Shown piece by piece: positions 18,148 through 39,867 of a DNA stretch of 64,000 nt (position 1 is the stretch's first letter; each line of letters begins with the position of its first letter). The notes under the pieces were generated by a model, which saw only the letters and a list, made by a program, of their open reading frames with translations, searched no databases and was not told where the DNA came from. This stretch comes from Marasmius tenuissimus (Eukaryota; Basidiomycota; Agaricomycetes; Agaricales; Marasmiaceae). Position numbers and translations under genes: made by a program. The DNA is taken from NCBI GenBank assembly GCA_029532415.1, contig JAQOTA010000045.1:62001-126000 (forward strand). The letters run 5' to 3'.

Positions 18148-18315
18148 GGTTTAAATACAATAAAGCGTACTGTGCAGTTAAGTGTGGGAGTACCCTGCCA
18201 TGAGGTGACATGTACCCTGCCACATCAATACACGTGTTTTGCATTTAAGGTCCGCTAGAATTAACTGCAAGTAAATGAACGCACTTTACACTTAAGCCTC
18301 CAGCAGCAACTTGAT
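18148..18315 (+). repeat. Left terminal inverted repeat of the giant element
   Basis: Pairs in inverted orientation with 39699-39867. Identity is highest at 18148-18220 (ATACAATAAA, GTGCAGTTAAGTG, then a run of about 27 bases from CTGCCATGAGG) and at 18291-18310 (CACTTAAGCCTCCAGCAGCA). Confidence 0.8.
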
Positions 18316-19495
18316 GCTACTGCCTATCTGCTCCACTGACATGGGAGGTCCTCAGATGCTACTCATTCGACAACAGCCAGGTGAGAAGAACCTCAATACC
18401 TCCCGAGAGTCACCGCATTTTAATACTGCTTTCGGTCAATAGTAAATGGATACTACTCGAAATGACCTGAAATTTAGTGGAATCTGGAAGCTACCGGCAG
18501 AGGTGCGTGGATAGAATCTCAGTTCCTCCTGATTTTGCTCACGCTGATGACCTGGCAGCGTCCGTCGGAGGGTAGGATTTGGATACTACTGCTGCTGCAG
18601 CACGAAGGTAAGTGTGTCGAATCTCATTTCCTCTCACCTTTGATGACGCGTTGATGCCTCGGTAGCATCTCAGTACCATTCAACGAACGCCAGAAAGCGG
18701 GTCGAACCTCAGTACTACTCACGTCAAAGCGGTCGGCAGTGGAAACTGGATACCACTGGAAGAACACGGCGCGCCAGTTGCATCTCAATTCTACTACACT
18801 GATCTACCGGTAGCATCCCAATTCTATCCGAATCAGAACCAAGTGGGGGTCGAATCTCAATGCTACTCGGATCGGAGCTGGGGCCAGTAGTTACTGGATG
18901 CTACTCGAGTTTCGAGGTATGTCAGTCACATTTCAATTCTACTACGCTGATTGGTCGGTAGCATCCCAATACCATTCACAAACACACCAAATATCAGCCG
19001 CACCTGAATGCTATTCGGATTGAAGCTGAAGCCAGTAGTTGCTGGATGCTACTCGAGGGCCTGAGGTACGTCAGTTGCATCACCATCCTTCCACGCCTCG
19101 TTGGCGCTCAATCGCTGGTAGCATCACAGTACTATTCCAAGAGGTCGAATCTCGATACTACTCACATTGGAGCTGGAGCCGGTGGTTACTGGATACCACT
19201 CGAGCGCTGTGTCAGTCGCATCTCAGTTCTTTTCGAAGCCGTCCAAAGAGGAGTCGAACATAGATGCTACTCCAGCACCAAGGTATGTCAGTCGCATCTC
19301 AATTCCACTACGCCAGCTCACCAGTAGCATCCCAATACCATTCGAATCGGGGCCCAACGCCAGTCAAACCTCAGTGCTACTCAGAATGGAGCCAAGACCA
19401 GTAGTTGCTGGAAACTACTCGAACGCCAAGGTATTTCAGTCGCATCTCGATTCCACTACGCTAACCCACCAGTAGAATCCCAGTACTATCCATAG
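18316..19495 (+). repeat. Left subterminal array of ~150-base degenerate units
   Basis: Recurring blocks are GGTATGTCAGTCGCATCTCA, then TAGCATCCCAATAC.ATTC, then CTACTC, then CCAGTAGTTGCTGGATACTA. The GTATGTCAG-type block occurs near 18916, 19064, 19206, 19284 and 19431. There are no long open frames of plausible protein. Such subterminal arrays are typical transposase-binding regions in large DNA transposons; that role here is inferred. Confidence 0.8.
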
Positions 19496-19499
19496 TACA

Positions 19500-20567
19500 C
19501 TAGTTTCGACGTGTTACTTCGAGCCCTTTCCCTCTCAATTCTTGTAACTCCACCGCGAATGAACCCGGGAGCCAAATATTACCCTCCAGTTGCCCTTTTG
19601 TCCTCCACACGTATCCGACAAGTGCATCTATATCCATTCTTGTCAGCTCATGACTCGGCACCATCGTCGTCGTGAGGTCCACCTCCAATCCCTCCAGAAC
19701 CGGCGAAGTCAATGCCCTGAATATCCTTGCTGCCTCGCCGCCTACTGCTGTAACCCTCAGCCTTTGTAAGTTCCCAGTCACAATCATCTGGATTGTCTCG
19801 ACCTCCTCCTCGTAGCGCACCACTAATGCCGCTGATATCACAGACGGGCAAATCACAACGATCATTAGGCATAACGACGAGCTCCCGTCGACTTCCAACT
19901 CCTGTAGCCAATTCCACCGAGACTCAGAGGGTACCGTGGTGGGAATGTTACATGTCCATGGTCTGATGAAAGGTCCCTTGTCCATCGCCAGCCCGAGCTT
20001 TTCCAGTCCTCTCATGCGACCAATTTCACGACAGATGTCTATCATCTGATAACCATCCGCACTTGGAAACGGACCGCACATCTTCAAATCGAACTGAAGC
20101 CACGAACATTCCAACTGGCGCAACGATTCCAGTACGTTAACAACCAGTTCGCACACACTACCAAACCAACTGGCGTATGAAAACGAGGCCCATTGTCTTT
20201 CCTGCTTCGCTAGCCAACGGAGGGCCTCGCAAGTCAATTGATCTTCGTGGTCGCGCAGTTCATCCGCCTTCACCTCCAACGTCACCTCCAACCCTCTACC
20301 GCTTCTTTTGGCCAGATGCAGACACTCTCCCAAGAACACGAACAGGTCTTCTTTCTGGCATTTGCGATGGTCAATATGCCGCAGAGTGAGCCTATGCCAT
20401 ATGGGTAACCCCTCGGCGATGTCCCTCCACTCCTTGCACACCTTTCGAAGTGTGCGTGCTGTGCCATACCCCTTCTCCATGCCAGTACAAGCCTCGAATA
20501 ACAGCCGCTCCCCCTTCACTGCCTCCAGGAAGATATGTCGGACAATCTCGGTCGGCTGTGTGTTCAT
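19500..20567 (-). CDS. F-box protein, 355 aa
   Basis: One uninterrupted frame with a good start, MNTQPTEIVRHIFLEAV. The N-terminus is an F-box (residues ~4-50): PTEIVRHIFLE, then LRKVCKEWRDIAEGLPIWHRLTL, the usual Pro-x-Glu-Ile start and Trp-containing end that bind Skp1 in SCF ubiquitin ligases. The remaining ~300 residues are leucine-rich and irregular, like the divergent LRR region of basidiomycete F-box families. It has no intron and is apparently intact. It is the first gene inside the left subterminal array and ends only 5 bases from it, on the same strand as the next two F-box genes. Target proteins are unknown. F-box families are strongly expanded in agarics, so it could be a passenger rather than an essential part of the element. 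Confidence 0.7.
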   Translation of the reverse strand: MNTQPTEIVRHIFLEAVKGERLLFEACTGMEKGYGTARTLRKVCKEWRDIAEGLPIWHRLTLRHIDHRKCQKEDLFVFLGECLHLAKRSGRGLEVTLEVKADELRDHEDQLTCEALRWLAKQERQWASFSYASWFGSVCELVVNVLESLRQLECSWLQFDLKMCGPFPSADGYQMIDICREIGRMRGLEKLGLAMDKGPFIRPWTCNIPTTVPSESRWNWLQELEVDGSSSLCLMIVVICPSVISAALVVRYEEEVETIQMIVTGNLQRLRVTAVGGEAARIFRALTSPVLEGLEVDLTTTMVPSHELTRMDIDALVGYVWRTKGQLEGNIWLPGSFAVELQELRGKGLEVTRRN

Positions 20568-20926
20568 TGCTGTTTGCTGTCATTGAGAGGGTGGATAATG
20601 GTAGGGTTGGTAGACGATGGACCAGAATGGCTGATGTATATGGTGGTATGACGTGAAGAAATTACGATATCACCCACTGGTGGCAATGGTTCCGGCCCGG
20701 CAGCTCAGCACTCAGTACTCAGTACTTGGTCAACTTACGATGTAACATCTACTTACCTCTCAGTGTCTTGATGTCCACTCTTGTAATTAGCTCACGAAAA
20801 CAATTCTATTACTACCATTGTCCACTTTACGCGATACAAAAGAAAACGTGTATCAATGAGAGGGCAAAACAAAATACAGCCAAACATCCGATGACAGTTC
20901 ACGACGTCGGAGGACAGCACCATGGT
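20568..20926. other. Intergenic spacer with a CAGTACT microrepeat
   Basis: Between two F-box genes. It contains CACTCAGTACTCAGTACT near 20709-20726 and otherwise AT-rich sequence. It probably holds the promoter of the gene at 19500-20567 and the 3' end of the next gene. Confidence 0.4.
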
Positions 20927-22366
20927 CTAGTACTCCAGCCAATATGGAAGCCATTCCAGCATTCTTTCTCGCCACTCGTCATCCCAGTCTCCCATCTCCA
21001 ACGCAGTATCCCAGTTCACCTGAGGACAGTGGGGAAGTTTGGATTGTAGCCAAGCTCTCACTTCTCCTCGTGCGCTTGGGACCCCAGTGACTCTCCTTTT
21101 GCCACGCTCAGACCGAGACTCGACGTGACCAACCAAATCCTCCGGCACGGGAAAGAGTTTGAAATCCCGAATATGATCACCTTCCGAGTCCAGGAACCAC
21201 CCGAGGGCTACTAGCGTGTAGTACCTCAGCATCAAACTATCCAACGCCCAGTATGGACATGTGACTCCCAACGTTTCGAGTGAGGGGAAAGACGAGATGC
21301 AGAGGAAATTGGCCAGCCAAGCCTCGGGCTCAGTCAGTACCAGCATCAGATTGCGGAGATTCTGGTGCGGAACGAGGCGAACTCGGCCTTCATGAGCGAG
21401 ACAGCGTTGGAGGTGTGGGCTGAGGCCGTGGTAAGAATCCGGGCAACGAATGAGCATGACACGAAGTGTAACGAGTTGTGGACAGTTTCGGAGGATGGTG
21501 TATGCGGTATACTCGCTTGAGCCAATCGCGATCTCGGTGAGGTTGTTTAAAGGCAACGATTTGTTTTCAAACCATTTCGAGATTGCTGGAAAGGTACATC
21601 CGACTTCGAACCCACTCCACGGCGCTTCGCGAAGCGGTATGTCCAGTCGCCCGAATTCGTCTTCTTCATACTGGTAACGTCCAAACCACATTCCGCAGAC
21701 ATTTATATTCGGCATGAACCGCATCAAACAGTCCAACTGAAGCCCACTGTTTTCGCAAGCCGACTGCCTGAAGAAGCTGAACCGCTGGACATTCGCCAAT
21801 TTGTCCCTAAGTGGTGTCATACATCGTCCCGTGTCAACGTCTGATAAAACCGCATTCCACACTAGCGTCGCCCATTCACTGGGGCAGTCACCCAGAGCCT
21901 CGAGAAAACGATTGATGGGCAGAGGAATGTCAGGATTTCCAGGACTGGGGTCACCATAATACCAGCCAACTGTGAGGGTAATATCGAGTTGACACCCAGT
22001 CGCTCTCTCCAGGATTAGACGAAACCTCCGAAGAAGCTTTTCGTAGCGCTCACGGCCCATGGCTTTCATTGTCTGAGTGGTGGGTTCTTGTGCCGGGCAG
22101 ATGAGATGAATTTCCGTCCAAAGAGTGGAATCGTTCAACCCAACTTCGCGAAACGCCGCCGACAAATGGGTCAATTGCCACACATCCGAGGACTGAAACC
22201 CCACGGATTCGATGACCGGGTCCAGGTACAACAACCATAGACGGTTCTCCACGTTTCTGTAGATTTTCCTGATGATCTCGTTCGGTAAGTGGATTCTTTG
22301 ACGTGCTGTTGTCCTAAAGATATTCTGATTCAGAAGCTGATCTTTTTTTTTTTTGCTGAATATCAC
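20927..22366 (-). CDS. F-box protein, 479 aa
   Basis: A single open frame. After a lysine-rich N-terminus the F-box reads IHLPNEIIRKIYRNV (about residues 25-39), then a short acidic stretch, then LTHLSAAFREVGLNDSTLWTEIHL. The rest is a leucine-rich, LRR-like body ending with a GDWDDEWRERMLEWLPYW tail. A related tail (DWGWMDEEWEERMWALGL) ends the F-box gene at 25873-27282, so the two belong to one subfamily. A poly-T/poly-A run (22342-22353) sits just inside the first codons, so the true start could be downstream. Its predicted role is SCF substrate receptor, with substrate unknown. Confidence 0.65.
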   Translation of the reverse strand: MIFSKKKKDQLLNQNIFRTTARQRIHLPNEIIRKIYRNVENRLWLLYLDPVIESVGFQSSDVWQLTHLSAAFREVGLNDSTLWTEIHLICPAQEPTTQTMKAMGRERYEKLLRRFRLILERATGCQLDITLTVGWYYGDPSPGNPDIPLPINRFLEALGDCPSEWATLVWNAVLSDVDTGRCMTPLRDKLANVQRFSFFRQSACENSGLQLDCLMRFMPNINVCGMWFGRYQYEEDEFGRLDIPLREAPWSGFEVGCTFPAISKWFENKSLPLNNLTEIAIGSSEYTAYTILRNCPQLVTLRVMLIRCPDSYHGLSPHLQRCLAHEGRVRLVPHQNLRNLMLVLTEPEAWLANFLCISSFPSLETLGVTCPYWALDSLMLRYYTLVALGWFLDSEGDHIRDFKLFPVPEDLVGHVESRSERGKRRVTGVPSARGEVRAWLQSKLPHCPQVNWDTALEMGDWDDEWRERMLEWLPYWLEY

Positions 22367-22690
22367 TTACATTGTCGGTGATATTGTGCAGTTGCGGGAT
22401 CCGGATGCGTCGGTGGAAGTCGTAATTTGCAGAGGAACTCAAGAGAGATCGGTGAGTAATATTCAAGATCAAGACGGCGTTGGTTGAACGTTGAACGTTT
22501 TGTTTACTAGAACTTGTGATCCAGGCAGCAACAGTGACATGTCAACAATAGAAAAAGAACAAGAATCCAAATTCTACTCGAAAAAACCAAGTACAAGTGT
22601 AATTACAAGACTACTGACATTACCAATTGAAGAAAACGAACTCCAACAGCTTGCGGCTGCCCAACCTATTGAGTAAATACAACAGTCAAC

Positions 22691-25636
22691 CTAGAGGGAC
22701 TCGCCCGGTCCTAACAAATGCATCTCTGGCTTGACTTCGTCATTGGACTCCAGCTGCATGTCGTTGGGCTTGGGATGTGCATCGGCCTCGGAGCTTGCGT
22801 CGTTGGGCTCGGGCGTCATGTTGCAGCTGTCAGAATCCGCCTCATCATTATACCGCAGGATCATCTCCAGCAACCTTGCTTCATGGTCCTGTGGAGGAGG
22901 GAGAGCGCTCTGTTTGGCTCGCAAGCAATCAATCTGCTTTTGGATACGTTTCTCCTCTGGTATCGGGACATACTTCGCGCCATCACGTCGCCAACGCCAG
23001 ACATCCTGCAATTCGACTCCTCGGCTCCGGAGAAGCGTGATCATGAAGTTGCATGTTCGAGGCAACGGTGGTGTGTGATCACCATATCCTTGGGTTCTCC
23101 CGCCGTAGCTGATTCTGATAGTCTTCCACAGGTAAAAGCCCCATACCGCATCCTCGATCGTACATCCACAATGTGCATGTTCCTTTCCGTCGTCCCCAAC
23201 CGGCAACTGAACGAGCGGTCCAGGCCCTTTCTTTGTCTTCTGTTCCCCTTCGTCTTTCTTTCCCTTGCCCGATCGTACCATTCAATTAGGCACTCCAGTC
23301 ATGACCCCATCCACCGCGTCTTTATCGTTGGTCCTTGTGGTCTTGTCTGACTTGTGGTGGTAGATACACTTCAGCTGACCTTCGCGCGTCACCAGGACCT
23401 GCTTCGCAAGCTCGAAACAGGAATCTCCTGCCTCAGGGCAGTGACTTGCGTCAGCACGGATGTGAGCCCGTGCTTGGTCGTCTAAACGGGCCTTTGGGTC
23501 CGACGGATTATGTAGGAAGTTCCATACACTATGCACAGCGTGGGCTACAACCAAACGGTAAGCCATGATTCAAGAATTTGTCTTGTATATTGAACTCACC
23601 CTCGGCACTCACGAACTTAGCCATTGCTGCAACTCTGGATGTCAGGTTCTACACCGAGCATAACTCCAGGACCTTCACTTACCAAGTGGGTCATCCTTGA
23701 CATCTGTACCGGGGCCCACACGCGTTGAGCGCCAACAACATCGATGAACCAACAAACGACTCACCATCGCTTTCCTGTGCCTGCTCACCAGTCGAGGGAG
23801 CCATAGATGGCTCTTCATGCGTAGCGTTTGGCATCAACGCCAGCGAGTCAATTGTTTCTGCCAGCAGAAAGTCAATGTAGCCTGTTGCATTCCGTCCTCC
23901 CAACGAGATAGGAGACAAAGCTTACCCGAGTCAACAGGCTTTTCCTTCTGCTGGGTTCTGGATTTCCCTTTCCGCCGGGCTTTCGTTTTCTTTCGAGCGG
24001 GTTGCTGCTCAAGCATCTCTACTGGTTCGAGTCCATCAGGAGTGGGTATTTGTGGGTCCTCAGCATGGGGCTCCGCTTTGTCAGAGGCGTCAAAGGCAAG
24101 GTTTTCCGTAGACTGATTCATTGCCACTGTCATACCTGTGACAAGCTCTGGTGCTGGGTAAGCCGTTGTAACGGTCAGTTTGACTGCGTCGTGTTTGTAT
24201 CGACGGTGCAAAGACTCACCGGCACCGGTCAATCTCGTTTCCCCCTCTAGTTCAGATGAGTCAGGAGAAATTCGGGAATAACGAAGGACATTTCTCACTG
24301 TTCTGGCTATTCGTAGCGTTGCTGGTAGCTTGGGTGGAGGACGTGATTCCATTGGCGACGAGGATATCGTGCATACTGGGTACCCTACTACCCTCGGTTC
24401 CCGGTGCCTTGATGGAGTCTGAGAGTCAGGTAAGTCAGCAATGATATGTCTTTGAGATTGGTAGCAACCTCACAGTCTTCCGATGACGCGTTTTCGAAGG
24501 GTAGAGGGTTTGGACCCATTTCTCCCACAATATGACGGTTTTCTGTGTTCAACGTAGTCCGTTGTTCCTCCTCCATCTCGACGTCGAGGTCCTCAGAACT
24601 CGCCATCAGGGGTTTGGTTTTCGCAGCGGCAGCGGTGATTCCATTGCTAGCCATTCCTGTGATTGTGGGCGCAGCTGGAGAGCTCTCAAAGACGGCAGGT
24701 TGTTCGTTTTCCATCTCGACATCGACGTTCTCCGAGCTCGCTATCGGGAGTGTTCTTTTCGCCACAGCTGTGGTTGCGGGTGGGACTGGCAGGTCGGCCG
24801 AGACAACGGACGCTTCTACTTCCATGTCGATGTCCATTGTACCTACATTCGCACTAGGTGAGTAATGTAATACTAGTAACGCGCAAAAAAAAAAAAGAAA
24901 ACACAAACTGGTCTGATTCTCTGCAGCGGTCTTCGACTCCATCGTCTTAGATCTTGTGTTTGGATGTCGTCCTCCGGGAGGGAGTGAAACTTTCGAGGCT
25001 CGATGCACGCCCTGGGTATCTGCTACCGCTGTGGACTTGGCCTTGCTGCCACCTCTCCTCATCCCCTTCTTCGGCTTCGACGTGGATTCGCCCGACGTCT
25101 GACCGTGCAGGACCTCCATGTTACTACTTGGGGCTGCAGGAGGCTCGCAACCGTTTTGCTTGTCGTGAGCTGCCGCCTCTTCTTGCTGAAGCAAATCTAT
25201 TGCCAAGTGTAAGCTCGATACGGTAACGACCCGAAGTTTGGAACACTCACTGCGAATTCTTCGTAGGGATATATACTCGATTTTGATGGGCTCCAGTTGG
25301 CTTCGAAGAATCGTCAATTTTTCTTGAATATCCACGGTCGAATGTCCCTTCTCTTCAAGATAATGGAGCTCATTCTGCGCCTTTATAATCTGCGCCTCCA
25401 TTTTCTTGAGGATGTCGATGTGTTGCTGGAAGTCTGTGGGTCCAGTCATGACTAAATGGTAACGAAAGAACGATCAAACAAGTGTCTACGGCGTACACAC
25501 CATGGTCATTCCAAGCCTTTGATTCGGGCTCGGTGAGCTGGCGGGAGAACGGGCAGTTTGGCATGCTTTTTTCTGGTGACTGGTTACTCGTTTGAGGTGG
25601 GTGGTTTTTCAGAGCTATCCAGCTGGGGAGCGTCAC
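22691..25636 (-). CDS. Long acidic/coiled-coil cargo protein, one in-frame stop
   Basis: I can chain about ten exons. Clear ones are 25636-25501, 25451-25251, 25196-24909 and one starting at 24842. Later junctions lie near 24470, 24230-24160, 23930-23890, 23760-23700, 23680-23640 and 23610-23550. The frame stays open across these joins. The protein starts MTLPSWIALKNHPPQ and has a coiled coil (FQQHIDILKKMEAQIIKAQ and onwards). It then has a basic Lys/Arg segment, repeated acidic motifs (MDIDMEVE, VDVEMENEQ, LDVEMEEEQ), a KKTKARRKGKSR nuclear-signal-like stretch, and a C-terminal globular part with CGCTIEDAVWGFYLW. No family is recognised. A TGA at 23284-23282 interrupts the same frame between GVPN and MVRSGKG, with frame quality unchanged afterwards. 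So either the gene is nonsense-mutated (TGG to TGA is the simplest origin) or it ends there and the last 196 residues are separate. Confidence 0.5.
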
Positions 25637-25872: not shown

Positions 25873-27282
25873 TCAATTGTGGACCCCCCACTGGCTCTGA
25901 AAGCATTCTGACCGTCGGGCTACAACACCGGTGCAGCAACTCAAGCCAAGTGCCCACATACGTTCCTCCCATTCTTCATCCATCCACCCCCAGTCCGAGA
26001 TATGTACGCACCCCCCCTCCAATTTACATCCCGATCGTTCAACAAATTTGACAATACTCTTGGCGAGGGTCTCGTCTTGTAGCCCGATGTTGATGCCGCT
26101 CGAGCACGCCACGGAGAACACCTTCAAATTGGGACATGAGACACTGTCCAAAACAGACCAGAGTCGGCTTTCGAGCTGGCCAGTGAGGATCACGAAACCC
26201 ATTTCCCGAACAGTGGCATGTTCGAGCACTTGTTGGGGATGCCAGAGGGGAGCAGTTTCGCAGGTGATACCTCCCCAACATATCCCGACGGCTGGGCATT
26301 GACGCAAAAGAAGAGAAATTGCTGCATACGATGTGTATTTCAGACGGAGGACCATGAGCGTCCGCCACATTGTACCCTGCAAATGAGGGGTACCGAAGTA
26401 CACATTGTAGTGGATATCGCCGAGATCCAATCCAAAATCCTGCAATCACAATTGGGGGATGGTCCCAAGTCGGGTGATCAGACTGACTACCTCGATGTCG
26501 GGGTGGTGTATGTCGACTCCACTAAACGAACTCAGCAATTGAAACTCGTGAATCTCCCTCCAATGGGTTGTCTGCCACAACCAGTCTACTGTTGAGTAGA
26601 TTTGCAACCAGGCGCAGTTGGCAAAAAGGCCTCTGAAAGTGACAGCGGTCCAGCGCGCAGGTCCAGAGATAATTTTGTCCAGGAGGAGGCGGAATCTCGT
26701 GGGGGGGCCCGAGTCGTTGAAACCATCTGCAAAAGCGACCTTCAGAGAAAGACCGAAGTCTTGTGTCGTTTGTGCGCCCAAGCACCGGTCGACTCTATTT
26801 TTCATCGCCTCCCACCACTTCTGATTCAGTGTTTCGCTGTCGCACAAGAACTCCTGGCTTGGACGTGCTTGATGGATGAAAAGCCGACAGTTTCCAGTGG
26901 GCAACAATTGCGATAAAAGGCAGAAAAGCCGGCAGACCTTCGCCGTGTCCCAAAGAGCCTGACACACATATTTCGTTTCGCCCGTGGTCAGGTCAAGCTT
27001 CCAGCCGATCCCATCTCCCGCAACCCACTGGAAAATCTCTTTCCAGATCTCATGGGGCACTCTGTTGAAAAATCCACCTGACCTTAGCAGTTTTTGACGA
27101 AGGACAAGGAAGGAGATGACACACCTCTGGATATCCACATATCTCTCCTTCAGCTCATTTGTCGTTTCTATTCGCCTGCCCGATTCTGCTGGAGAGTTGG
27201 GAAGATATGCCTCTACTGTGTTCCCAGGTCCGATACGAATGGGATAAATGGTGTGCTTCTCCATCGTCAGTGTGGTGGGCAA
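25873..27282 (-). CDS. F-box protein with one intron
   Basis: The exon from 27282 starts MPTTLTMEKHTIYPI. The F-box reads FFNRVPHEIWKEIFQWV (about residues 70-86), followed by an irregular helical/LRR-like body. A 51-base intron (26490-26440; GTAGTC...CTGAT...TTGCAG) removes the only in-frame TGA and keeps the frame (HHPDIE joined to DFGLDLGD). The C-terminus ends near SDWGWMDEEWEERMWAL, resembling the tail of the F-box protein at 20927-22366. Predicted role is SCF ubiquitin-ligase substrate receptor with unknown target. It is the third F-box gene on the minus strand inside the giant element. Confidence 0.65.
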
Positions 27283-28478
27283 AGAGTTGACGGTGGGTCG
27301 GGATTTATCTGTCTTCGCAACACTGATTTGGAAATTGCGATGGCCACCGGACAGTAGCCTCGGCGGGGCTTATGAAGCGACCTCATTGCCTATAGACCTA
27401 TCCAGTATTATGGACGGGTGCCTCAGTGGGAGTGCATGTCATTAGTATGTTTGGTGATGTCGAGTTCGAGCCTCGGACTGTCCACTACTCCATGGCCGGC
27501 AGTAGCAGCTACGCTGGCTGTGGGTTTCTTTTCGCCTCTACTTCAATTTTTTTTCTTCGTCGAGCGAGATATCGCAAACCTTCAGAGACCATTAAGTCCA
27601 CCCTATGGCTCTTGATCTGGCAAACCACACAAGTTCAACTTCTCACTTGTGGTCATGGGAAGTCGCGAACTTCAACGTTTTTCTTTCTTACCTTCTCCCA
27701 CTCGTCGAGTGCCTCTCTTAAATCCCAACACTGCTCTCCAACTCCAACAATACACATCATGATGCCGCAGCTTACAATCAAAGGAAAATTGTATGTGAAG
27801 ATACCTGTGTCAAAGTCCTGATGTCAGTCGTGAAGCGCCGAAGGACATGTCCCCTTTCAAAGTGAGTGGCGAGCGCTTTGGTTATTTTGCGAGGCCAAGT
27901 AGAATCAATAGATACAGCACGGAGAACATTGTAATACAAGACTAAATTACCCAGCGTGAGCACGTATTGCAATATCACTCATTTTCAACCCTCCATCTTT
28001 GATATTAGTGAAAGAGTTATGAGTTGACAGCCGCAAGATCAATGTTATCTGTGAGATTGATTATTCCAGGGGATTTGTTGAGGACTCACAGCGTATATTG
28101 GCGCCATCAAAAATGCTATACGAGTACCTCGAAGGCTTCATGCTTGATCAAATGGCTATAGGTGAGTCAGAAGGGATAATAGGTGACTGTGCGAGGAGAG
28201 GAAGCTCTGGCGCTTATGGGCGCTAACATGGATTTTCGACGTTCTCTCTGGCGTCTATGGGCGCTTGAAGGCCTTTTCTCACTCTCGTCGTCATTGTCTC
28301 ACAGGATCAAAATGAGTGTCTCACAGGAGCGCAACGAGTGTCTCACAGAATACTGATTCTACAACATGTCAACATCGTAGACGTGCCAATTCCGCTAGAT
28401 TTTTGATCTTTTTCTTTTTCCTCCAGTATCTGCCTGGTCATTCCCAGATCAACGACAAACCCCATGCTCGCCAATGGA
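27283..28478. other. Non-coding spacer inside the giant element
   Basis: No supportable gene. Short frames on both strands are low-complexity or lack splice partners. It contains a small tandem repeat (28295-28349) and paired TGGCG(C/T)(T/C)TATGGGCGCT motifs near 28211-28265. Confidence 0.4.
28295..28349 (+). repeat. Three ~22-base tandem units with GTCTCACAG
   Basis: The motif TGTCTCACAG occurs at about 28295, 28317 and 28340, spaced 22-23 bases apart with variable AACGAG/AATGAG spacers. No function is evident. Confidence 0.6.
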
Positions 28479-29390
28479 TTCCCCACAATCCAGTTTCACG
28501 CAACTTCCACGCTTCGCTCCCCGCTCGAGTCGCAAAAGATCTACTTGACTACCAAGTCCTGATGAGGAAGACTGGCGATTGCCCATTGCATCAAGCCCTA
28601 CACCATCGCCTTGTGCTTCACCAGGACAACTCATAGAAACCACGCCCTCTCCCCGAAGGCCTCCAATATGGCACTGGGGTTTCGATCCCAACCTACCGCC
28701 GTCCGACCCACCATCGGATGATGAAAACGATCTGGCTGTGTATGACACAGAGACCGCGGGGGATACTCATGGAAAGGCCGCTCAGTTGAGTTTGAGAGTG
28801 TCTTGGGACTTCACTTGTCGGCTGAAGGTTGCTTACATCGGTCTCCTTAGCCTTGATAGTCCATTCGATTTCAAGTCCTCTCACTCAACAAACACTGCCC
28901 TGCACGACTCTGGTGGGTGGCCATGATTCATGGTGGAACACTTGTTTGACTCCCTAATAACCGGCCTTTGCAGAGTCTTCCCAACTAACCGCGAAGCAAC
29001 ATTGAATCTTGCAGAGTCAACGGAGAATAGAGAGCTTGAGGCAAGCGGTCGAGCTCAGGGAGCAGCGGAACGAGTGTCGAAGTAAAGCCCGACAACGGTC
29101 AAGTGCATACTATAACCGCAATCGGGAAAGAATTGCTCAAAGAAGAAAGGATCTTCGGGCTGCGTGAGTCCCGCATCCTCCCTCTATTTCACCTCAACTG
29201 ACCTTTTTTCGATTAGATCTACATCCGATGCGAGTCTTGAAGCCGTTCAGGAAAGACGAGCCAAACAAAGGGAGCACAGCCGATGGTATCGCGAATGACA
29301 TCGAGAATCGGTCAATGAGAAAGCCAGAAGACGTCGCAAGGCCAAACGTGATGAGGAGCGGGGTCATTAGATTAATTTGGTCCGATTCTG
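28479..29390 (+). pseudogene. Decayed gene: Ser/Pro-rich N-terminus plus basic coiled coil
   Basis: Exon 1 starts at ATG 28479 (MDSPQSSFTQLPRF) and runs through a Ser/Pro-rich stretch and WHWGFDPNLPPSDPPSDDEN to about 28795. A second exon begins after a TTGCAG near 29014 with a highly basic coil (SQRRIESLRQAVELREQR, then YYNRNRERIAQRRKD). After a GTGAGT..TAG intron the same style resumes (EAVQERRAKQREHSRWYRE). A TGA at 29296-29298 then interrupts it before HRESVNEKARRRR. I recall proteins with this layout as common hypotheticals in mushroom genomes, function unknown. The stop inside the conserved basic motif argues that this copy is broken. Confidence 0.5.
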
Positions 29391-29674: not shown

Positions 29675-31500
29675 CTAAGATGTGTTGGATGTGCTACCAC
29701 TCGGGCCCCCGGAACCCTGACCATTCTGATTAAGAATGTCTGTGATACTCGTCCCCTGAGCTTGGAGATAGGTACCCAGCAATGCAAGGATTTGATCCTG
29801 TTGCTCCACACGCTGATTGGCTTCATCTCGCTGTTGTAAGTACTGGGCGGACTGGAATTCCACCCGGGCGATGTCTCGGCGGCGGCCCGTCTTCAATGCC
29901 CCGTACATGGTCTTCATCAACCGGTTCATACTCTCGAAGATCCTATCAGGTGTGTCGCTCACAAACGACGGAGACTCCCAATGGACGTACCCACCCCAGG
30001 AGTTCGGATGGTTGGCAGAGATCTGGAGCTAACAGCCAGTCTCGTCGTACACACGTTCACACTGTCATGGGTAGTTAGCGAGCGAGTACCAATACAGGGG
30101 ACCTCCAACAGCTCACCATTATAAGAATGCGATCAAGACATTCTGTGAAATGTTGTGTCACCTTTCCCTCCTCCATTCTTCCGAACAACAGACCTGGTCT
30201 TACAACGGCTATCAAATTGGATCAGCCATTGGCATGTCGAGAATCACTGTGAGTGAGAACTTACAATATTCCTTATCCCCTCTTTTGGCAAGCATGAAAC
30301 CATAATGTGGCTTGGTATGTGAGGCTCGTAGACATTCACTGTTTTCGCAGGTGCGAGTGATACAGGACCTCTTGGGTACCGTTCCGGGGCTGGGGCTCAA
30401 GGGTCTGGGCGAGGGTGTAGGAGAAAAGTGACCGACATGTTGAGTGCCGACGTTGTCTTCTTCGGTACCATCCTGGGATGAGCCAAGCACTGGAGTCGAA
30501 GTCACTTGTTCCTGCTGGCCAGGCATATCTAAGAGGGCATGATTGGTCAACAACGGCGAGGACAAGGAGAGATTCTAGATTCGTACCGGAAGCCGATGGA
30601 GTGTCCAGATCTAGACGACAGCACAAAAGATCAACGAAGCTCAAGTGGAAGAACAAGTAGGCACCTACGAGTTTGGGATATACAGTCGTCGTGATCCACC
30701 GGCAAAGTGCCGATTCCTGAAGCCAGCGTTGCTGTGCCTGTCGAGCCTAAGATACGCGTTACTAAGGGTGCACAAATGTGACTTAGCATGACGAGAGATA
30801 ACATACGTGCAATGAGCTCCGCATTAAGAACTTGGAGAACTGAGGAAACTGTCAGAGATGGACTAAATAATCAACGGGCGTAACTCACGAGTTGTGTATG
30901 GTTGAGTAGGTGTGGGTACAGCTTGTGATATTGTAGGTGGATCCAACGTAACATTCTGATCGTCTTGAGCTGTCTTGGAGGTCACAAATTCTGCTACAAC
31001 TCAAGTAAGAGAGTGTACTCACAGAGGAATTGAGGTAACCCAAAGTCGAAGGACGATCCAATCAGAGTAGAGCCAGAAGAAGGGTATTGGGAGGTTGCGT
31101 GAGCCTGGTGTATCGAAGCTGAAAAGGGGTTGGCGAACGGCAGTTTGCTAAGGAACGGGGACGGCTACCTTCTGTTTGGTTGCGTTGCGGGTTGGGGGTC
31201 TGTATAAAGCCACAAGGGAATCAGCTCACGCAGCGACTCGGGGGGATGCATAAACTCTCACAGAATTACGAGGAGATGAGCCCTGCTTATTCTGTGTCTG
31301 ATCCTGTTGTCCAGCACGCACGCGCTGTTGTGCGCGTGCAGAATGTTGGGTACACTCCTTCTGCAATGGGTATGGAGGGCCAGGACATCACTTGCATTGC
31401 CGAGGGGCTCGCTTCATAACACCTTCTTTAGCTTGTAGTTTCTTTAGTCGAGCGGTGGGTACAGACTTGCACGGCGAGGATCGTACAGGCTGAGGCGAAG
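29675..31500 (-). CDS. Multi-exon Q/S/P-rich hypothetical protein
   Basis: Short exons chain on the minus strand. A likely first exon near 31497-31385 (MASPQPVRSSPCKS...) comes first, then a Gln-rich exon (QQRVRAGQQDQTQNKQGSS). A Ser/Phe-rich exon (KLPFANPFSASIHQAHATSQ) near 31120 follows, then ARQAQQRWLQESALCRWITT near 30700. The better-supported 3' exons are 30565-30262 (a Cys-containing ITRTCENSECLRASHTKPHY), about 30209-30119, and about 30031-29675. The last holds a coiled coil (YLQQRDEANQRVEQQDQILA) and ends GGPSGSTSNTS. Donor GTAAGT at 30261 and GTGAGC at about 30118 fit. One upstream junction would not join in frame by my reading, so the 5' half is uncertain. No family is recognised. 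Confidence 0.4.
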
Positions 31501-31992: not shown

Positions 31993-34900
31993 ATGATTCC
32001 GTCGACAACGCGCGACAAGGCCGGCAGGTTAGAGGCTGAAGCAGATTCGAGTGCATGGAACAACGCCTTTGCGGTGATTGATATGTTCGATGAAGAAGAC
32101 TGGGGTGGGCCATCGACTACCGCAAGCCAAGATGAGGGAAGCTTCACTCTCCCTGCAGGCGACCTTAGCGCTCGGGATTCCCTAGACTGGCAGGCATGGG
32201 ACAACAAGGAGAGTGACTATGTGAGCCGGTATGTGGTACATCACAGCCCCTCAAAGACGCGATTGGGGAGAAGGCGGAAGAGGAGGGATAGCAACCAAGC
32301 ACCTCCAAAACGGCAAAGGGCTGCCGGTCCTGTGATGCAGGAGGGTGAATTCATGCGAAATGGGATGGAGGGAGCTGGATTTGGGTGGGAGCCCCTTCAA
32401 CAACAGCCAGTGGATGGTGAAGACGAGCACATGAGCCATGACCACTCCATAGATGATGAAGCAGACTTGGAGGCATACATCGAGGAGTACCAGGGAGAGA
32501 GGGCGGGGTTCATTCGCGTTGGGACGTATATCTATGTTGTCCAGGGTTGGAACAGCACGAAGAAGGAGGTTATGGTGAGTGCTGGCGCCTGCAAAAGCGG
32601 TGTTCTATCATTGGTTGATGGTGTTACAGGAGAAGTGGTTCCATTTCGAAGCTCGGAGAATTGGAGAAGATGTTCGAATCGCGTGTGCGTGTCCGAAGGG
32701 AATCGCTTCTGGCTGATGCGTACACAGTGAAACTTATCTAGAGTTTTGTGAGGACCGGTATATCGAGCAAGAGGCAATGATTTTTCGAGGTGTGTACTTC
32801 ACTCTCGCCGCTTGATTTGAGGTGACGATTCGACAATGCGTAGATGGCCGGGTGGTCTGGTTCTGGAGAGAACTCTATGGCGACGCCAATAACGAGGGTC
32901 CTTGGTTGAATTGTTTTTCTGTCGCTCTTGGAAAGTCAGACCAAATGACAATTCAAAGACGAGCGATCATGACTTACATTGGCCCTGATACAGGCGTAGG
33001 GACATGGAAATGTTCAAAGTGTTCTGGGGCATGTCCTCACCAGAGCGCAGCAGAAGTGTTCATGGGAAGGGTGTATGGAAGGGAGCCTCTGGTTGAGGAC
33101 GAGGGCATTGGGGATCCCGATAACTCTGAGGACATAATGTTGGGTAAGGTCTTTCCCAGTCTGAATGGTCGACGACTTGTGCTAACCTCGCGCTGTAGTG
33201 GACAGACAGAATAACATGCAGCAGAAGGAGACTGCCATCTCATTCCTGCCAGTTCGCCCTCCACATTGGGCAGAGCTGGATACGGACATTAAGCACTACG
33301 ATAGAGCTTCTCTCTTGTCCGAGATCCCGTGTACGATCAGACTGGAGGTACCGGCTCAATCAATGTGTGGGATCCAATGTGTCGAAGCGGAACTGCTGGG
33401 AGAAAGGATCGTTAGAACGTGCACGGTTTATACACTAACTGAAGGACTTACCTGCAATATCGAGCTTGTACCATGCCCGAGTTGTCACAATCGGAAGCAT
33501 TGCTTCATTGGGCCCGAAACCTGTCGGTTTGGCATCTTCAACTTCAACAACTCGGTACTATTCACTCACGAGCTGATGGACGAATACACCAGTCGCTTTA
33601 CCAGCTCGGAGACACCATTCGTTGCATTTGTGGAGACGATCGAGAGGAATTACCGAAGCCGTGGGTCCCAATTTGTGAAGGAGGACTTATTTTGTTTGGC
33701 GTGGTTTGCGTATGCGTCTATCCAGGACTTCTCTAAAGACATGTCGTGTCCTCGTTGCGCCGAGGAACCTGCGTGTGTCATCTTCGAAGGGGTAACCCTC
33801 GCCTTTGGTAAAAAGCACCTCCAAGACTCGCTGCGTCCGCCAACTTTTGCGAGTGAGGGGGCAATAGTACGACAGAGGACTTATCCTGTGAAGCCGCAAC
33901 TGGTGCAGGAACAGTCAAAGATGCCCATTCGCCGGTTGATGAAGAGCTTTATTAGGGGGAAGCGTAGCTCACAGCAACAAGGTGAAGATGATAACGAGGA
34001 AGATGACGATGAGCTATGGGACAACTACGAGGTCTTAGTGCAACACCTCAAAGGAGTGCTGCCAGCGCTGGCCAACCTGTTCGAGAGGACAGTCGGGCCA
34101 AAGGCGAAGATTCAGCCTGCCCTCAGGCAACGTTATGGGGTATTCTTGGAGCAGGTATGGATCCGGTGTCATTACGTCGCTGTATTGACTGAAGGTGTTA
34201 CAGATAGCGGCTGAGGAATACGCTACTCAAATGATCAGCTTCAAAAGTCTGCGTGTTCTGAAGGGCTTTACTGACCAACCAAGCTGGACATCCGCTACGA
34301 AACTCGTAGATATCCCCGCATTATACCACGTGTTGGAGTTCGAGTGCAAACTCAACAACAAGTACCCGGAGGACCTATTGGCGGTTTGAGTATGGTTACA
34401 TGAGCGCGCTGGACAAGTCCTAGGCTCCCTCACTCGTGGGCGAGATGGTGACCTTCCTATAGCTGAAAAGGAAGGGGAACACGATTGGAAATCAGTGGGT
34501 TCTTTTCTGCGACACATCGACTAGGAGACTCACAGATAAACATAGACTGGCTGCTACTACAGTCTGCCCAAAATTTGGGACAGACCTCTATATCCCAAGC
34601 TAAGAGGTGACGGGAATCCCGAAAGCAGCATTAAGGAGTCCAAGACTGCGGGTTGCCGAAAGTTGTACCACGAATACGGGCAGAAGAGATTGACCCATCG
34701 GCGAAACCCCTAACGCGGGTCCCCGGTAGGGACCAGCCCTCGCAACTCGGGAATACCCTTCCCATGTTGACGAGGATGTGAACAGTCGGGACCCATCGCC
34801 TTTTTGTGCACAATGGTCTGCATATTGTAGTTCAAGATGTACATTAGCTACTGGTTGTATGAAAGTATGGACAACTTACGCACCTTGTGAGGTGTTGTAC

Positions 34901-37089
34901 ATCTTTGCCTCCATCTTGGAGAAGATGTACAACTTGTGCCGCAAGTTGGATACAACAGTGTACAACCGGCTACGGGATGTAGCTGGGGTTGTGCATCCAT
35001 CTACATCCATTCAAATCCCCTCAGTTCCTCAGATATGTTCCAGTGTCGGGCAGCAATAAGAGAGTGAACTGAATCGTTATATTCATGCAACTACTAGATA
35101 CACATACAGCTATAACCACCGTGAGGGAGCGAGCCTACAAAACTAATCTAATAAATAACTAGAGCCGAGGGAGTCAAAGGGGGTTCGATAGCTTAGAAAA
35201 GTTTAAAGGAAAGGTCAATAGAAGCAATCTGCCCGACTTGCCACGGTTTATATCCGTGCCATAATGAGTGTTAGGCTTGCGAGTCACTGACAGAAGAACA
35301 GATATACGCACGTTCATGGGGCGCATATATGCGCCCAAATGACCAGTCAGAGCAGAACTTGGAGAAACAGACGACGACGGCGGCAGGATAGATGGTGTGC
35401 TATAGTTAATACATGAGGTCGTGGTCAGCAATTATATCAGCGTGAGGGATTAGGTTTGCTTACAGGGCCCATCCCATACTTGGGAGATCAGAAACCTGAT
35501 GATTGAGTGGAACCTGGAACCGACTTACTATTTAGTCACAACATGAGCGGGCGCTACAACTTCAGTGATGCATTGGGTGACCCAAAGACGGCGCGTTGAG
35601 CGGTGGGCGTGACAGGATAGAGACGAAGCAGACACCAGGCAGAGAAGGCGGGGTGATGGTGGGGGGGAAGGGAAGAAAGAGGTCGAGTGGCGAGCCTTTG
35701 CAGCGCATCAGGTTTATAAATCTGAGTGGTGGTCCGTGCGGGCGTTGTAGAAATAGTCGGGGTCCAAAGTTGACGACGTTGGTGATGGTGACAACATATA
35801 AGACGTATATACATTGTTGCGAAAAACTTCGCGAGCAAGCAACTGAAGCATTAGAAACCGTCACTCATAAAAATAATAATTTTCACGTACCTAGACCATA
35901 GAGTCTTCCAATAATCCCATGTATATTCCCATACAAGCTTCTTGGCTTTGACTGAGAGCTGTTAACTGACTACCAATTGGGAATTAGGCAAGTTAAACGA
36001 CGGTGGTGGTGGTTGGGAGTCAAGAGAGGCATAGAGCGTGCACGTGCGGGCAAACAACATATGTATTTGAGACTCCGACGAGATTTCAGCGCAGGCGCCC
36101 AAATTTGCCGCCGGCTGGACATCCACAAACCCCCCGACTATCTTCAGCCTCTGACTCTCACCTTGAACCGCGGCACTCAAGGTAAGCCAGACTCACCGTG
36201 TTTGACAGCAATGCGAGTCAGGGACATTCAAAATTTCGACACCATCACAAGTTGAATTTAAGTACCCACCAGTGTCCTAAACCACCGACCTGTAAGTACC
36301 GTATCTGGGACGGTCTGTATCTATGCCAGAATCATATCTATTGTTGTAATATTACCTTGATTGATGGATCGGGATGTACTGACACTATCAACTTGAACTG
36401 TAACATGGACATCTTACCAAACATCTTTTCTGTAGGTGTACACCTGCTACATCTTTCGTGCGCGTGAACATCTTTGCTAACATCTTGTATTGAAGGGACA
36501 TCCGCCGCATCTTGACACGGGATATACAACCTTTGCAGCAACATAGTAAGCTACTGTACAGTATCTCCCAGCGTGACTGTGAGTGGCCACCTCTTACCTC
36601 CTTGGGACCCGCCTTTGAGGTTTTGCCGATGCCGGGGGTATAATGTGTGCCTGGTGTACGCACAGCATTTGCTACGGCTTTCATTGCATCCCGAAAGCAG
36701 AAGGCAGGAACGATGTGTTTGCGACGCTTCTAACGCGATGGAAGGTGGCTCCTGATCGTGTAGTTTATGATTTTGCTTGCGCCTTGGCCTCCTACTGCAT
36801 GACTAGGGAGCCCGAGTTCTTCAAGACTACTCAGTTCCTCATTGACCAGTTTCACGAGACGGGGCATTCCAAGTGTGGTTCGGCGTGTTTCCTATCGACG
36901 TACATCAGAGTTGACAAGGACTTGGGAGCAGTGAATAGCAGTGCGGCGGAGTGCGGAAATAGCGGGATTGGGAGGATCAGAAAGTCCGTGAGCTACATGC
37001 GACAGAATAGGGCGATATTGTACACAAGGGTGTTTCTGTCGATCTGGAACCGCAAGCAGATGAAGAGGATGACGGGTAGAGGACAGTAG
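31993..37089 (+). pseudogene. KDZ-type transposase with cysteine clusters, disrupted
   Basis: A large transposase-like gene. Its N-terminal domain contains FIRVGTYIYVVQGWN (32510-32555), and a Cys cluster follows (WKCSKCSGACPHQS, ~33010). A second Cys cluster domain reads PCPSCHNRKHCFIGPETCRF ... DMSCPRCAEEP. The C-terminal catalytic region (36643-37089) has CAWCTHSICYGFHCIPKAEG, VYDFAC, IDQFHETGHSKC and SSAAECGNSG, giving candidate D, D, E residues. It matches the cysteine-cluster (CxC) proteins and RNase-H-fold transposases described for KDZ elements. Introns at about 32792-32845, 33145-33198 and 34156-34202 splice cleanly. Damage: a TGA and one-base shift at about 32728-32745, a TGA at 34387-34389, and a 1.94 kb element inserted after KLYHEYGQKRLT. 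The reading resumes exactly with GGIMCAWC. It is therefore not functional here, although it is the most likely former transposase of the giant element. Confidence 0.75.
34696..36631. mobile_element. Nested 1.94 kb TIR element inside the transposase gene
   Basis: The left end starts CATCGGCGAAACC and continues to GCGGGTCCC. The reverse complement of the right end starts CATCGGCAAAACC and also reaches GCGGGTCCC, so 24 of the first 28 bases match. A CC dinucleotide flanks both sides (34694-34695 and 36632-36633). Removing the element plus one CC restores the transposase reading frame exactly (KRLT-GGIM). There is no coding capacity for a transposase. Many ACATCTT/AAGATGT and TGTACAAC motifs lie towards both ends, inverted relative to each other. 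It is therefore a non-autonomous element. CACTA/CMC-like is the best guess from the subterminal repeats and short TSD, but the family is not certain. Confidence 0.8.
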
Positions 37090-37375
37090 CATTGTAGAGC
37101 CACCCGTCCCCTCCCATTGATCATTACACGTGCATGATGGGAATTCTCAGTGACGGCGTTCGGACCGTGATACGGATCGAGCATCTTATCGTAGGATAGA
37201 TAATCACGATAGAACAACGCCGTGTTTACCGTCGCCTTGTGGTTATCGTCTCGACCCAATGCTTTCTGTTCTCGCTTCGTGGCTCGCCTTTGTGGTCCCA
37301 TTACATCAAGGAGATATGGGTAAATTCTGCCTAAGACAAGGTAAACATACAAATGGAAGGACGTTGAAAATCTAA

Positions 37376-38302
37376 TCAGTTTCGTCACAATAAAGCTTCT
37401 CCTCGGGGTCTGTTCCCATGAGAGTTCGATATAGGTTGTACACCCAGCGCGCTGGCGGTCCGGGCATGGGAGTGGAGTCAGAGAACTGAGACTGAATTAA
37501 TGACTTGGTGAATTAATGACAGGTAGAGTGAGCTCACCAGGGAAGCATTCAAGGACACTCGCCCCGCTTGGATATCCTGCTCGAGAGATCCAAAAGCGCG
37601 CCAGAGCGCTCCAAGACTGGGGTAGCGACTGCACACAATCTCGACGCGGTCATCATCCATTCCAGGAATTACCAACAGCATTCGTTTGAATTCATCCGCT
37701 TGCTGCTCTAAAGTAGGATTGGCGCTGGGACGAGGGATCAGTGAAAGGTAATATTTCTAGGTTCTAAAGTTACATTTGGAACAGGAGGTCTGGCATCATT
37801 TAGCTTTAGACATAGCGAAGAGTAGTAGATTGTAACAAAGCAGCTCACCACGAGTAGCAGCTACAACGACCGCGGCAGCTTCATCAAGGTCATTCACGAA
37901 GTGATGTCGAGTATTGTGTGTTTCCTGCAACTCCTCCAACGTGGACCTTGCAGAGGAAACAGGTGTAGCGTGATCGTCATGCAAGCGATAGATGATAATC
38001 CATGTTCGATCGTAGGGGTGGATTTGGCCGTGAACAAGACGAAACGAATCAATAAGATGGGAGAGTGAGTCGATATTGGTGAGATATGGAAGGGCCTCGC
38101 TGGCATCTAGCCACAACAACGCTGCGAGTCCGTGAACGCCTTTCCAAGTAATGGTTTTAAAAGATCGCAAGGCGCTCAAGGTTGCGTAGACGACAAAGTC
38201 CGACTCGGGGGAGGTAATGGACTCGAGCTTCGATTCGAGGGCCCCTACAATGGCGGGATAGTCACGGGTGAGCTGCGTGGCGAGAACCACCTCGAGTGCC
38301 AT
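37376..38302 (-). CDS. Small protein with helix-hairpin-helix-like motif
   Basis: Exon 1 (38302 to ~37849) encodes MALEVVLATQLTRDYPAIVG and a predominantly helical domain of about 150 residues, ending LDEAAAVVVAATRG. A second exon holds LLVIPGMDDDRVEIVCSRYP followed by SLGALWRAFGS, similar to the helix-hairpin-helix of MUS81/EME1-type nuclease subunits. A last exon, GPPARWVYNLYRTLMGTDPE, ends at a TAG near 37376. Expected size is about 260-270 residues. The exon 1-2 junction phase did not resolve by eye. Assignment to the EME1-like family is tentative: I see no ERCC4 catalytic motif, which non-catalytic EME1-type subunits also lack. It is the last gene before the right subterminal array. Confidence 0.4.
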
Positions 38303-38359
38303 GATACTGGGTAGATGGAAGGTCGGGAGTAGGCAGTTGACAAGGTTCCCGACGCTGTC

Positions 38360-39698
38360 CGATACACTACGAACTCAAGTTGACGTCAGCAAATCGGGAA
38401 GAACCAAGATTCCATCCACACTTACCTGCGAGTCTGAGTGGTATTCAGAGACCACTCGTTTTGACGCCTGGAAGTGAGTAGGATTGGGATTCGACTGGCG
38501 CCTAGTGGATATCCAAGTAGTGCTGGAGTTTCACCTGAGAAGTGACGTCAGTGAAAGCGAGAAGAAATGAAATGCGACTGGAATACCTCTGAGGCTGAGT
38601 AGTACTGAATAACCACTCGTTTTGGGGGGCCGGAGGTGAGTAGAACAAAGATTCGACTGGCGGCTGGGTGTTCTCCTGGTAGTATTGGAATGCTATCCGA
38701 GACCTGACGTCAGCGAAAGCGAGAAGAAATGAGATGCGACCGACGTACCTGCGGGCCCGAGTAGTATCCAGGAGCTACTGGTGTGTGCACCCAGAAGTCG
38801 GATTGATATTCGGGTGTTCTGTGAGTAGTACTGGAATTCTACCGATAAGCTGACATCAGCGAGAGCGAGAAGAAATGAGATGCGACTGACATACCCTCTG
38901 AGGTTGAGTAGTACTAAATGACCACTCGTTTTGGCGCCTGAAACCGAGTAGAACAGAGATTCCACTGGCGGCTGGGTGCTCTCCGAGTAGTATTAGAACG
39001 CTACCCAAGACCTGACGTCAGCGAGAGCAAGAAGAAATGAGTTGCGACTGACATACCTCTGTGGTTGAGTAGTACTAAATAACCACTCGTTTTGGCGCCT
39101 GAAACCGAGTGGAACAGAGATTCCACTGGCGGCTGGGTGCTCTCCGAGTAGTATTAGAACGCTACCCGAGACCCGACATCAGCGAGAACGAGAGGAAATG
39201 AGTTGCGACTGACGTACCTGTGAACTTGAGTAGCCTTCGGTAACCACTCGTTTCGGTAGAATTGAGATTCAACTGGTAGCTGAGTGTTCTGAAGGTAGTA
39301 CTGGAATTCCACCAAGGAGCTGACGTCAGCGATAGCGAGAAGAAATGAGATACGACTCCAATACCCCCGAAGTTCAGTAGCCTTCAGTAACCACTCGTTC
39401 GGTAGAATTGAGATTCGACTGGCGCTGGGTGATCTCCGAGCAGTACTGGGATTCTACCAAGAACTGACGTCAGCAAGGCAGAGAAGAAATGAAGATGCGA
39501 TTGACATACCTGCGAGGCCGAGTGGTATTCAGTAACCACCGACTACCCGACTTGAGTAGAACTGAGTAGAATCCAGATACGACTGGCAGCTGGCGTTTTT
39601 TGAATAGTATTGGAAGGCGACTGGTCCGTATACGGCAAGGAGAGTAGAATTGAGATTCTATATACATATTTCTGTGTGTTGCTGCAGATGAACGAGTG
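38360..39698 (-). repeat. Right subterminal array of ~150-base degenerate units
   Basis: On the minus strand the units repeat the blocks seen at 18316-19495. Plus-strand marks are GAGATGCGACTGACATACC-type blocks near 38568, 38731, 38877, 39039, 39198, 39349 and 39490. AACCACTCGTTTTGGCGCCTG and GAGTAGTATTAGAACGCTAC lie between them. Spacing is 145-165 bases. Orientation is inverted with respect to the left array. Confidence 0.8.
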
Positions 39699-39867
39699 GA
39701 ATCCAGATGCTGCTGGAGGCTTAAGTGCAAGGTGCGTGCATCTAGTTGCATTTAACTTCGGCGGGCCTTGAATGCGTACCATGTGCCATATCTCGGCAGG
39801 GTACATGTCACCTCATGGCAGAGTACTGGATCACTTAACTGCACGGTACGTTTTATTGTATCTAACC
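39699..39867 (-). repeat. Right terminal inverted repeat of the giant element
   Basis: Inverted partner of 18148-18315. The outermost recognisable bases are TTTTATTGTATCTAACC at 39851-39867. Confidence 0.8.

Follow-up and report, generated by a model that had tools for sequence, protein, structure and literature searches.

Does a 21.7-kb segment of the Marasmius tenuissimus genome, bounded by inverted ends and holding a KDZ-type transposase together with several other genes, represent one large transposon of the DDE type? DDE transposons are usually lean, and large cargo-bearing fungal elements are usually thought of as Starships, which are large multi-gene mobile elements that use a tyrosine recombinase and lack terminal inverted repeats (TIRs) of this kind. 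The segment lies in a stretch of 64,000 nucleotides (contig JAQOTA010000045.1 of assembly GCA_029532415.1, positions 62,001 to 126,000), referred to here as the window. The M. tenuissimus genome searched comprises 71.06 Mb in 70 contigs, designated C3, C4, C10 and so on, with the window located on C4; coordinates are window positions unless a contig is given. We conclude with high confidence that the window contains a decayed 21.7-kb copy of a multi-gene KDZ DNA-transposon family of the CxC4 branch, with a recurring accessory gene set. The family displays homologous termini, long TIRs, inverted subterminal arrays, a KDZ/CxC4 transposase, 8-bp target-site duplications (TSDs) in two sister copies, and the recurring accessory set.

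The element spans positions 18135–39881 (21,747 bp), and these limits were set from a terminal 10-mer common to other copies. The left TIR (18135–18321, + strand, terminus GAGGCAGGCG) and the right TIR (39695–39881, − strand, terminus CAGATAGACG) are each about 187 bp, and the inverted arms align over 18140–18321 and 39695–39876 at 79–81% identity. The left-versus-right arm score was 176, while the maximum among 300 Markov-resampled 64-kb windows (one strand) was 36. Inside the TIRs lie two subterminal repeat arrays with approximate limits, the left (18322–19495, + strand) made up of ~148-bp units and the right (38380–39690, − strand) of 147–162-bp units. A 19-base array motif, GTCAGTCGCATCTCATTTC, occurs 12 times in the 64 kb when up to 3 mismatches are allowed (0.05 expected), with six occurrences on the + strand at 18612–19453, six on the − strand at 38564–39423 and none elsewhere. 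An earlier note on this DNA had proposed inverted ends of ~165 bases followed by inverted subterminal arrays; the ends are borne out, with limits 13 and 14 bases further out, and the strand split of the motif confirms the arrays. Ten termini from six loci could be aligned. In the four elements for which both ends were read, one end begins with CAGATAG or CGGATAG and the opposite end with GAGGCAG, GGGACAG or GGCCTAG, and the assignment of terminus type to gene-end differs among the four.

The KDZ-type transposase that the earlier note placed inside the element near one end (31993–37089, + strand; start set by hand) is supported by two domain matches. The CxC4 cluster (PF18717) was detected at 33186–34214 with an expectation value (E) of 2.2e-40 and 138 bits, and the KDZ domain (PF18758) at 36619–37086 scored 28.7 bits, just above the cut-off of 26.6. 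The same domain scored 29.4 bits in the transposase of the C26 copy (P0016) and 20.8 bits, below the cut-off, in a protein from the second strain (P0010). A protein search with the transposase found M. tenuissimus PM082_002385, which is 99% identical. PF18758 has 165 matches in the genome, and the CxC4 exon has 12, counting that of the window.

Both ends were read in three further elements, located on C10 (23,964 bp), C22 (18,756 bp) and C26 (20,697 bp). These are colinear with the window element at the protein level and have the same gene order. In the window, the genes concerned are F-box-like gene 1 (19503–20579, − strand, a 359-codon open reading frame (ORF) with no stops), F-box-like gene 2 (20930–22366, − strand, a 479-codon ORF with no stops), an unnamed family here called gene3 (22694–23569, − strand, with the motif HCGCxxxDAVWGLYLWK), a basic coiled-coil gene (29678–30574, − strand, in exon pieces, conserved in C10, C22, C26 and C31), the transposase gene, and an EME1-like gene (37372–38302, − strand). 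Compared with the window, C10 has 40% protein identity in F-box-like gene 1, 35% in F-box-like gene 2, 47–51% in gene3, 60% in the coiled-coil gene, 57–86% in five exon pieces of the transposase and 35% in its first, and 37% and 51% in exons 1 and 2 of the EME1-like gene. C22 and C26 both carry gene3, the coiled-coil gene, the transposase and the EME1-like gene, with a weak F-box-like gene 1 (24% and 23%, respectively); F-box-like gene 2 has no match in either element. The C10 arms (846 bp, 97% identical) are the most alike TIRs of the four elements. Directly outside the terminal 10-mer, C10 is flanked on both sides by AATTTTTC and C26 by CGGCCAAG, in each case with 8/8 bases matching, so that a perfect 8-bp TSD is present in two of the four elements read at both ends. 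Two copies on C31 (read from 794001 to 812000) were compared over 8,000 bases and proved 100% identical for 6,674 of them, with the identity ending at the terminus CGGATAGGCG; the C31 subterminal array has a different, AGCTCC-rich unit.

The earlier note had proposed searching for paired ends at similar spacing in other surroundings, and these were found at three other sites, 18.8–24.0 kb apart, with the same gene order and no shared flanks over the lengths read (about 3 + 3 kb for C10, 3 + 4 kb for C22 and 0.6 + 2.7 kb for C26). When the window flanks were compared with C10, C22, C26, C27 and C31, the only similarities were a DNA match of 27 bases (E 0.009) and a protein match of 37 residues (E 5e-4). 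That note had also raised the prospect of ends occurring mostly singly; the two other loci matched by the end sequences are C10, which has both ends, and C27, which has a right end and a left array without its TIR. At C27:2186521–2188953, the right end of an element (EME1-like gene, array and TIR) runs tail-to-head into a left array with a broken F-box-like gene 1, and the 60 kb read there yielded no transposase of the CxC4 branch.

The linkage of the accessory genes to the transposase was counted as matches within 20 kb of any of the 12 CxC4-transposase matches, with own copies included; together the zones cover 0.7% of the genome. All 11 gene3 matches lie near a CxC4 match (two of them at C22), as do 10 of 12 EME1-like matches, with the remaining two on C27 (beside the element end) and C41. 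F-box-like gene 2 has six strong genome matches including itself (E up to 5.6e-21), each of which adjoins a gene3 match and lies near a CxC4 match, and eight weak matches, none of them near a CxC4 match. F-box-like gene 1 is near a CxC4 match in 3/6 cases, and two others are C27 pieces beside the element end. Gene3 is absent at two of the 12 transposase matches (C54:527 kb and C3). Since the C31 pair is a duplicate and two further loci have equal scores, the 12 matches represent fewer independent lineages. These two loci, C4:214055–230927 and C65:207453–224326, have identical match scores, and are possibly one locus assembled twice or a recent copy. For both of them and for C20, C54, C41 and C3, gene content was taken from match positions rather than from a full reading. 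A second arrangement, with the EME1-like gene placed on the opposite strand between gene3 and the transposase, was read in C31 and is indicated by match positions at C20:1425–1438 kb and C54:458–479 kb. At C41:659026–663524, an EME1-like match lies ~4 kb from a KDZ match, with no CxC4 or gene3 match at the locus; the gene association may reach outside the CxC4 branch.

Several observations weigh against the interpretation as a single transposon family with an accessory gene set. Among the sisters, the C22 arms are 70% identical, and those of C26, aligned with relaxed scoring, are 66% identical over 98 bp; C22 lacks a TSD (2/8 bases matching), and a pattern search for the far end of the second C31 copy by its expected duplication gave five matches, none of them on C31. 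The C10 match to F-box-like gene 2 has four stops (introns or decay), the C10 EME1-like gene has a TGA in exon 1, and the CxC4 match at C10:5501217–5502209 also has a TGA, perhaps at an intron edge. F-box-like gene 1 is broken on C27, and one of its six matches, at C3, is unlinked. Gene3 of the window has an in-frame TGA at 23282–23284, or a short intron there, and neither Pfam nor PDB gave a significant sequence match to it. None of the three F-box-like genes has an F-box domain above the Pfam cut-off, and the matches below it are the reason for the name F-box-like. Likewise, the EME1-like gene has no Pfam ERCC4 match and no significant Pfam or PDB sequence match, and is therefore designated EME1-like by fold.

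The window copy adds further points of the same kind. Its transposase gene is split by a nested TIR insert of 1,936 bp (34696–36631, no strand assigned; 28-bp inverted termini, 23/28 matching), and C10, C22, C26 and C31 are uninterrupted at the corresponding point. It has no TSD, with 1/8 bases matching. The left flank (15752–18134) is 90% identical to sequence at C10:1.21 Mb, and the right flank (39882–42713) is 92% identical to sequence on C5, each match stopping at the element end; as the flanks match different contigs, the two ends of the window copy may never have inserted together. The empty site proposed in the earlier note as a check was not found in the genome, where a sequence of 776 bases joining the two flanks had 28 matches, of which none spanned the pair of flanks by more than ~8 bases. 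To the right of the element (39882–64000), it abuts a NACHT (NLR-like) gene family, at 40291–41988 and 54428–56545, and the right-hand flank is repeated along C4, C65 and C5.

The missing TSD and the mismatched flanks would fit a region of ordinary chromosome between two dispersed repeats, with the internal genes being host genes, as would the C27 locus with its right end and no complete element. This explanation is very improbable given that the same gene order lies between homologous ends at three other sites, that gene3 was near a transposase match in every case, and that C10 and C26 have perfect TSDs. A more serious alternative is that the window region is a recombinant, or the relic of two element insertions, whose ends do not bound one transposition unit. 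The absence of a TSD, and flanks whose matches lie on C10 and C5 and stop at both ends, suggest either that copies recombined or that an old insertion took place between duplicated segments, and the tail-to-head junction on C27 suggests that such rearrangements happen. However, gene order and spacing agree with those of the other copies, and the old insertion could leave the same signs. We regard the recombinant or relic origin as a real possibility that falls somewhat short of even. The missing TSD is read as loss or recombination, and not as the mark of a different kind of element. The window copy is worn (split transposase, no TSD, mismatched flanks), and its status as a working vehicle is unsupported. 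Support for the large DDE-type TIR element of the earlier note comes from the sister copies of this KDZ family.

Copies vary in what their middle segment contains. A TET/JBP-like gene is common to C10 and C22, for which the C22 version has a Pfam match at E 0.012, below the cut-off, and no PDB match, and the C10 piece has no Pfam match; this gene was not found in the window copy. Another F-box-like gene is common to C22 and C26. From its gene content, the middle segment appears to be a swap zone, occupied by TET/JBP-like genes in some copies and by other F-box-like genes in others. Such variation, with the TET/JBP-like gene in C10 and C22 and F-box-like gene 3 in the window and C26, would fit a small KDZ core that repeatedly captures unrelated host genes (pack-type), with the F-box-like and EME1-like genes having no role in transposition. 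Also consistent with capture are the eight weak matches that make F-box-like gene 2 part of a family with further genome members, and the faster evolution of F-box-like gene 1 and the EME1-like gene relative to the transposase. Capture is nonetheless improbable, since the order of F-box-like gene 1, gene3, the coiled-coil gene and the EME1-like gene is kept in the window, C10, C22 and C26 at roughly 23–60% protein identity, F-box-like gene 2 adjoins gene3 at all six strong matches, and F-box-like gene 1 is open in both the window and C10 with a lower proportion of nonsynonymous than of synonymous differences. The earlier view that the gene load is surplus to transposition needs correcting, as a large share of it is more than incidental: gene3, the EME1-like gene, the coiled-coil gene and F-box-like genes recur with the transposase, and the term passengers fits the middle segment best.

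The EME1-like gene has three exons with limits set by hand, encoding an XPF/MUS81-type pseudo-nuclease domain followed by a helix-hairpin-helix-like exon. Structural comparison suggests that the protein adopts an XPF-type nuclease-like fold. In both comparisons made, chains of MUS81-EME1 entries (PDB 9f98, 2ziu and 4p0q), which we take to be EME1, ranked above other XPF-family members, with 19–21% identity over the aligned part. The string ERK, read by eye, is absent from all six aligned EME1-like sequences; ERKxxxD is the active-site motif of the XPF/MUS81 family, and its loss marks the EME1 side. Exon 2, the helix-hairpin-helix-like part, is conserved as judged by sequence alone. A protein search found no relative at E up to 0.01 among 929 candidates. 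The helix-hairpin-helix-like gene of the earlier note is thus a real gene, better described as EME1-like. The protein resembles EME1 of MUS81-EME1 in its pseudo-nuclease fold of the XPF/MUS81 group, apparently with a helix-hairpin-helix-like part after it, and differs from it in being transposon-borne and in its 19–21% identity. That low identity, a six-sequence alignment and the lack of a demonstrated partner leave room for a free DNA-binding or end-bridging subunit that shares the fold and is not a MUS81 partner, which we consider only slightly short of evenly balanced; the first rank of the MUS81-EME1 chains in both comparisons argues against it.

F-box-like gene 1 has relatives in C10 (40%), C27 (50%, broken), C22 (24–28%), C26 (23%) and the second M. 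tenuissimus assembly. In Pfam it matched at E 0.0018 with 18.5 bits against a cut-off of 24.3, and its relatives gave F-box-like matches at E 9.9e-5 (C22), 0.0014 (C26) and 0.013 (C10), with 22.5–22.6 bits for C22 and 21.8 for P0085. Between the window and C10, the proportion of nonsynonymous differences (pN) is 0.37 and that of synonymous differences (pS), near saturation, is 0.74, and the alignment is stop-free across 346 codons; the excess of pS over pN is a pattern left by purifying selection, weaker than that on the transposase. A profile search that scored 8,000 candidate proteins, those sharing most words, found three proteins: that of the window, PM082_013800 and AAF712_014997. PM082_013800 is on the C22 contig along with the C22 transposase PM082_013793. 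AAF712_014997, from the second M. tenuissimus assembly, is on a 39,821-bp contig, and the same 39,821 bp is given for the CxC4 transposase AAF712_015002, with locus tags five apart. On the SKP1 side, a six-sequence F-box profile aligned with SKP2 at E 1.4, which is not significant. F-box-like gene 3 (25873–27369, − strand) consists of two abutting ORFs and has a relative in C26 (40% and 30%). Neither it nor F-box-like gene 2 has a Pfam match, and both are F-box-like by eye and position only; the three F-box genes of the earlier note are thereby reduced to one with sub-cut-off support.

Two other predictions of that note hold as ORFs. The acidic coiled-coil ORF (24388–25473, − strand) has no relative in C10, C22, C26 or the part of C31 read, and the Q/S/P-rich ORFs (28316–28926, + strand) have a weak relative in C31 (E 0.00015). 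A structure model of gene3 was unusable (predicted local distance difference test score, pLDDT, 49).

As for mechanism, the transposase very probably attaches to the arrays by its zinc clusters, brings the ends together, cleaves them at CRGATAG-type termini and integrates with an 8-bp stagger, in the manner of other KDZ elements; the TSDs of C10 and C26 show the product of such an insertion. In the window copy the transposase is interrupted, and the flanks may have changed by recombination between copies. It is conceivable, if somewhat doubtful, that the EME1-like protein, without ERKxxxD, pairs with host MUS81 and directs it to branched DNA arising from excision, insertion or repair of a long element. 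More tentatively, the F-box-like proteins could be SKP1–cullin–F-box (SCF) adaptors for the removal or adjustment of a host factor that restrains transposition, or of the transposase. The full combination, in which this KDZ branch is a 19–24-kb multi-gene machine whose own EME1-family subunit redirects host MUS81 to transposition intermediates, whose SCF adaptors disarm or adjust the host response and whose swap zone trades TET/JBP-like and F-box-like genes, is speculative, and we think it rather unlikely to hold in every part.

Compared with Starships, the family shares large size and many genes, and differs in having a KDZ transposase, long TIRs and, in sister copies, 8-bp TSDs; no recombinase family was found among the window ORFs scanned for a tyrosine recombinase (DUF3435), which cover part of the total. 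The closest described relatives in architecture include KDZ1, KDZ2 and KDZ3 of Cryptococcus neoformans, which, in the available part of their account, are about 9.2–11 kb, carry CxC1, have TIRs of 139–241 bp and few full-length copies, and generate TSDs of 8 bp (KDZ1) or 4–8 bp (KDZ2 and KDZ3) (PMC12810828). The Marasmius family is like them in its KDZ transposase, the presence of a CxC cluster, its long TIRs and its 8-bp TSDs, and unlike them in its size of 18.8–24.0 kb, its CxC4 cluster and its several recurring accessory genes; F-box does not occur as a term in that text, and the part available describes no EME1-like gene (PMC12810828). Among fungal TET/JBP-encoding elements, as excerpted, Zisupton and Dileera have 8-bp TSDs, and Kyakuja has 7-bp TSDs and no TIRs (PMC12730594). 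These too are basidiomycete KDZ elements with an accessory gene, and C10 and C22 seem to carry a TET/JBP-like one, but neither F-box nor CxC occurs as a term in that text (PMC12730594), and no TET/JBP-like gene was found in the window copy. The TIRs and 8-bp TSDs of the Marasmius family speak against a placement with Kyakuja as characterised there (PMC12730594). In fish, F-box genes with a KDZ-derived CxC7 domain have been described, according to the portion of the source available (PMC12062965). A Pleurotus MSH4 insert considered as a member of the same branch was rejected, as it carries CxC5/CxC6 in the part of the record at hand. In the sections available, the term KDZ is absent from a giant-transposon review and from one Marasmius oreades paper, and a second M. 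oreades paper mentions KDZ and Plavaka groups along with a TIR motif. No KDZ element bearing a set of EME1-like or F-box genes was found in the accessible portions of the open-licence literature searched, which does not establish absence from print, and the literature on EME1 with transposase and transposon gave no KDZ study by title.

In this KDZ lineage, whose elements are roughly double the length of those of Cryptococcus, a recurring accessory set with an EME1-like protein among its members is retained. If the EME1-like protein does work with MUS81, this would be a eukaryotic DDE transposon that recruits a structure-specific endonuclease. The C10, C22, C26, C31 and window copies form a natural series on gene gain and retention in large DDE elements.

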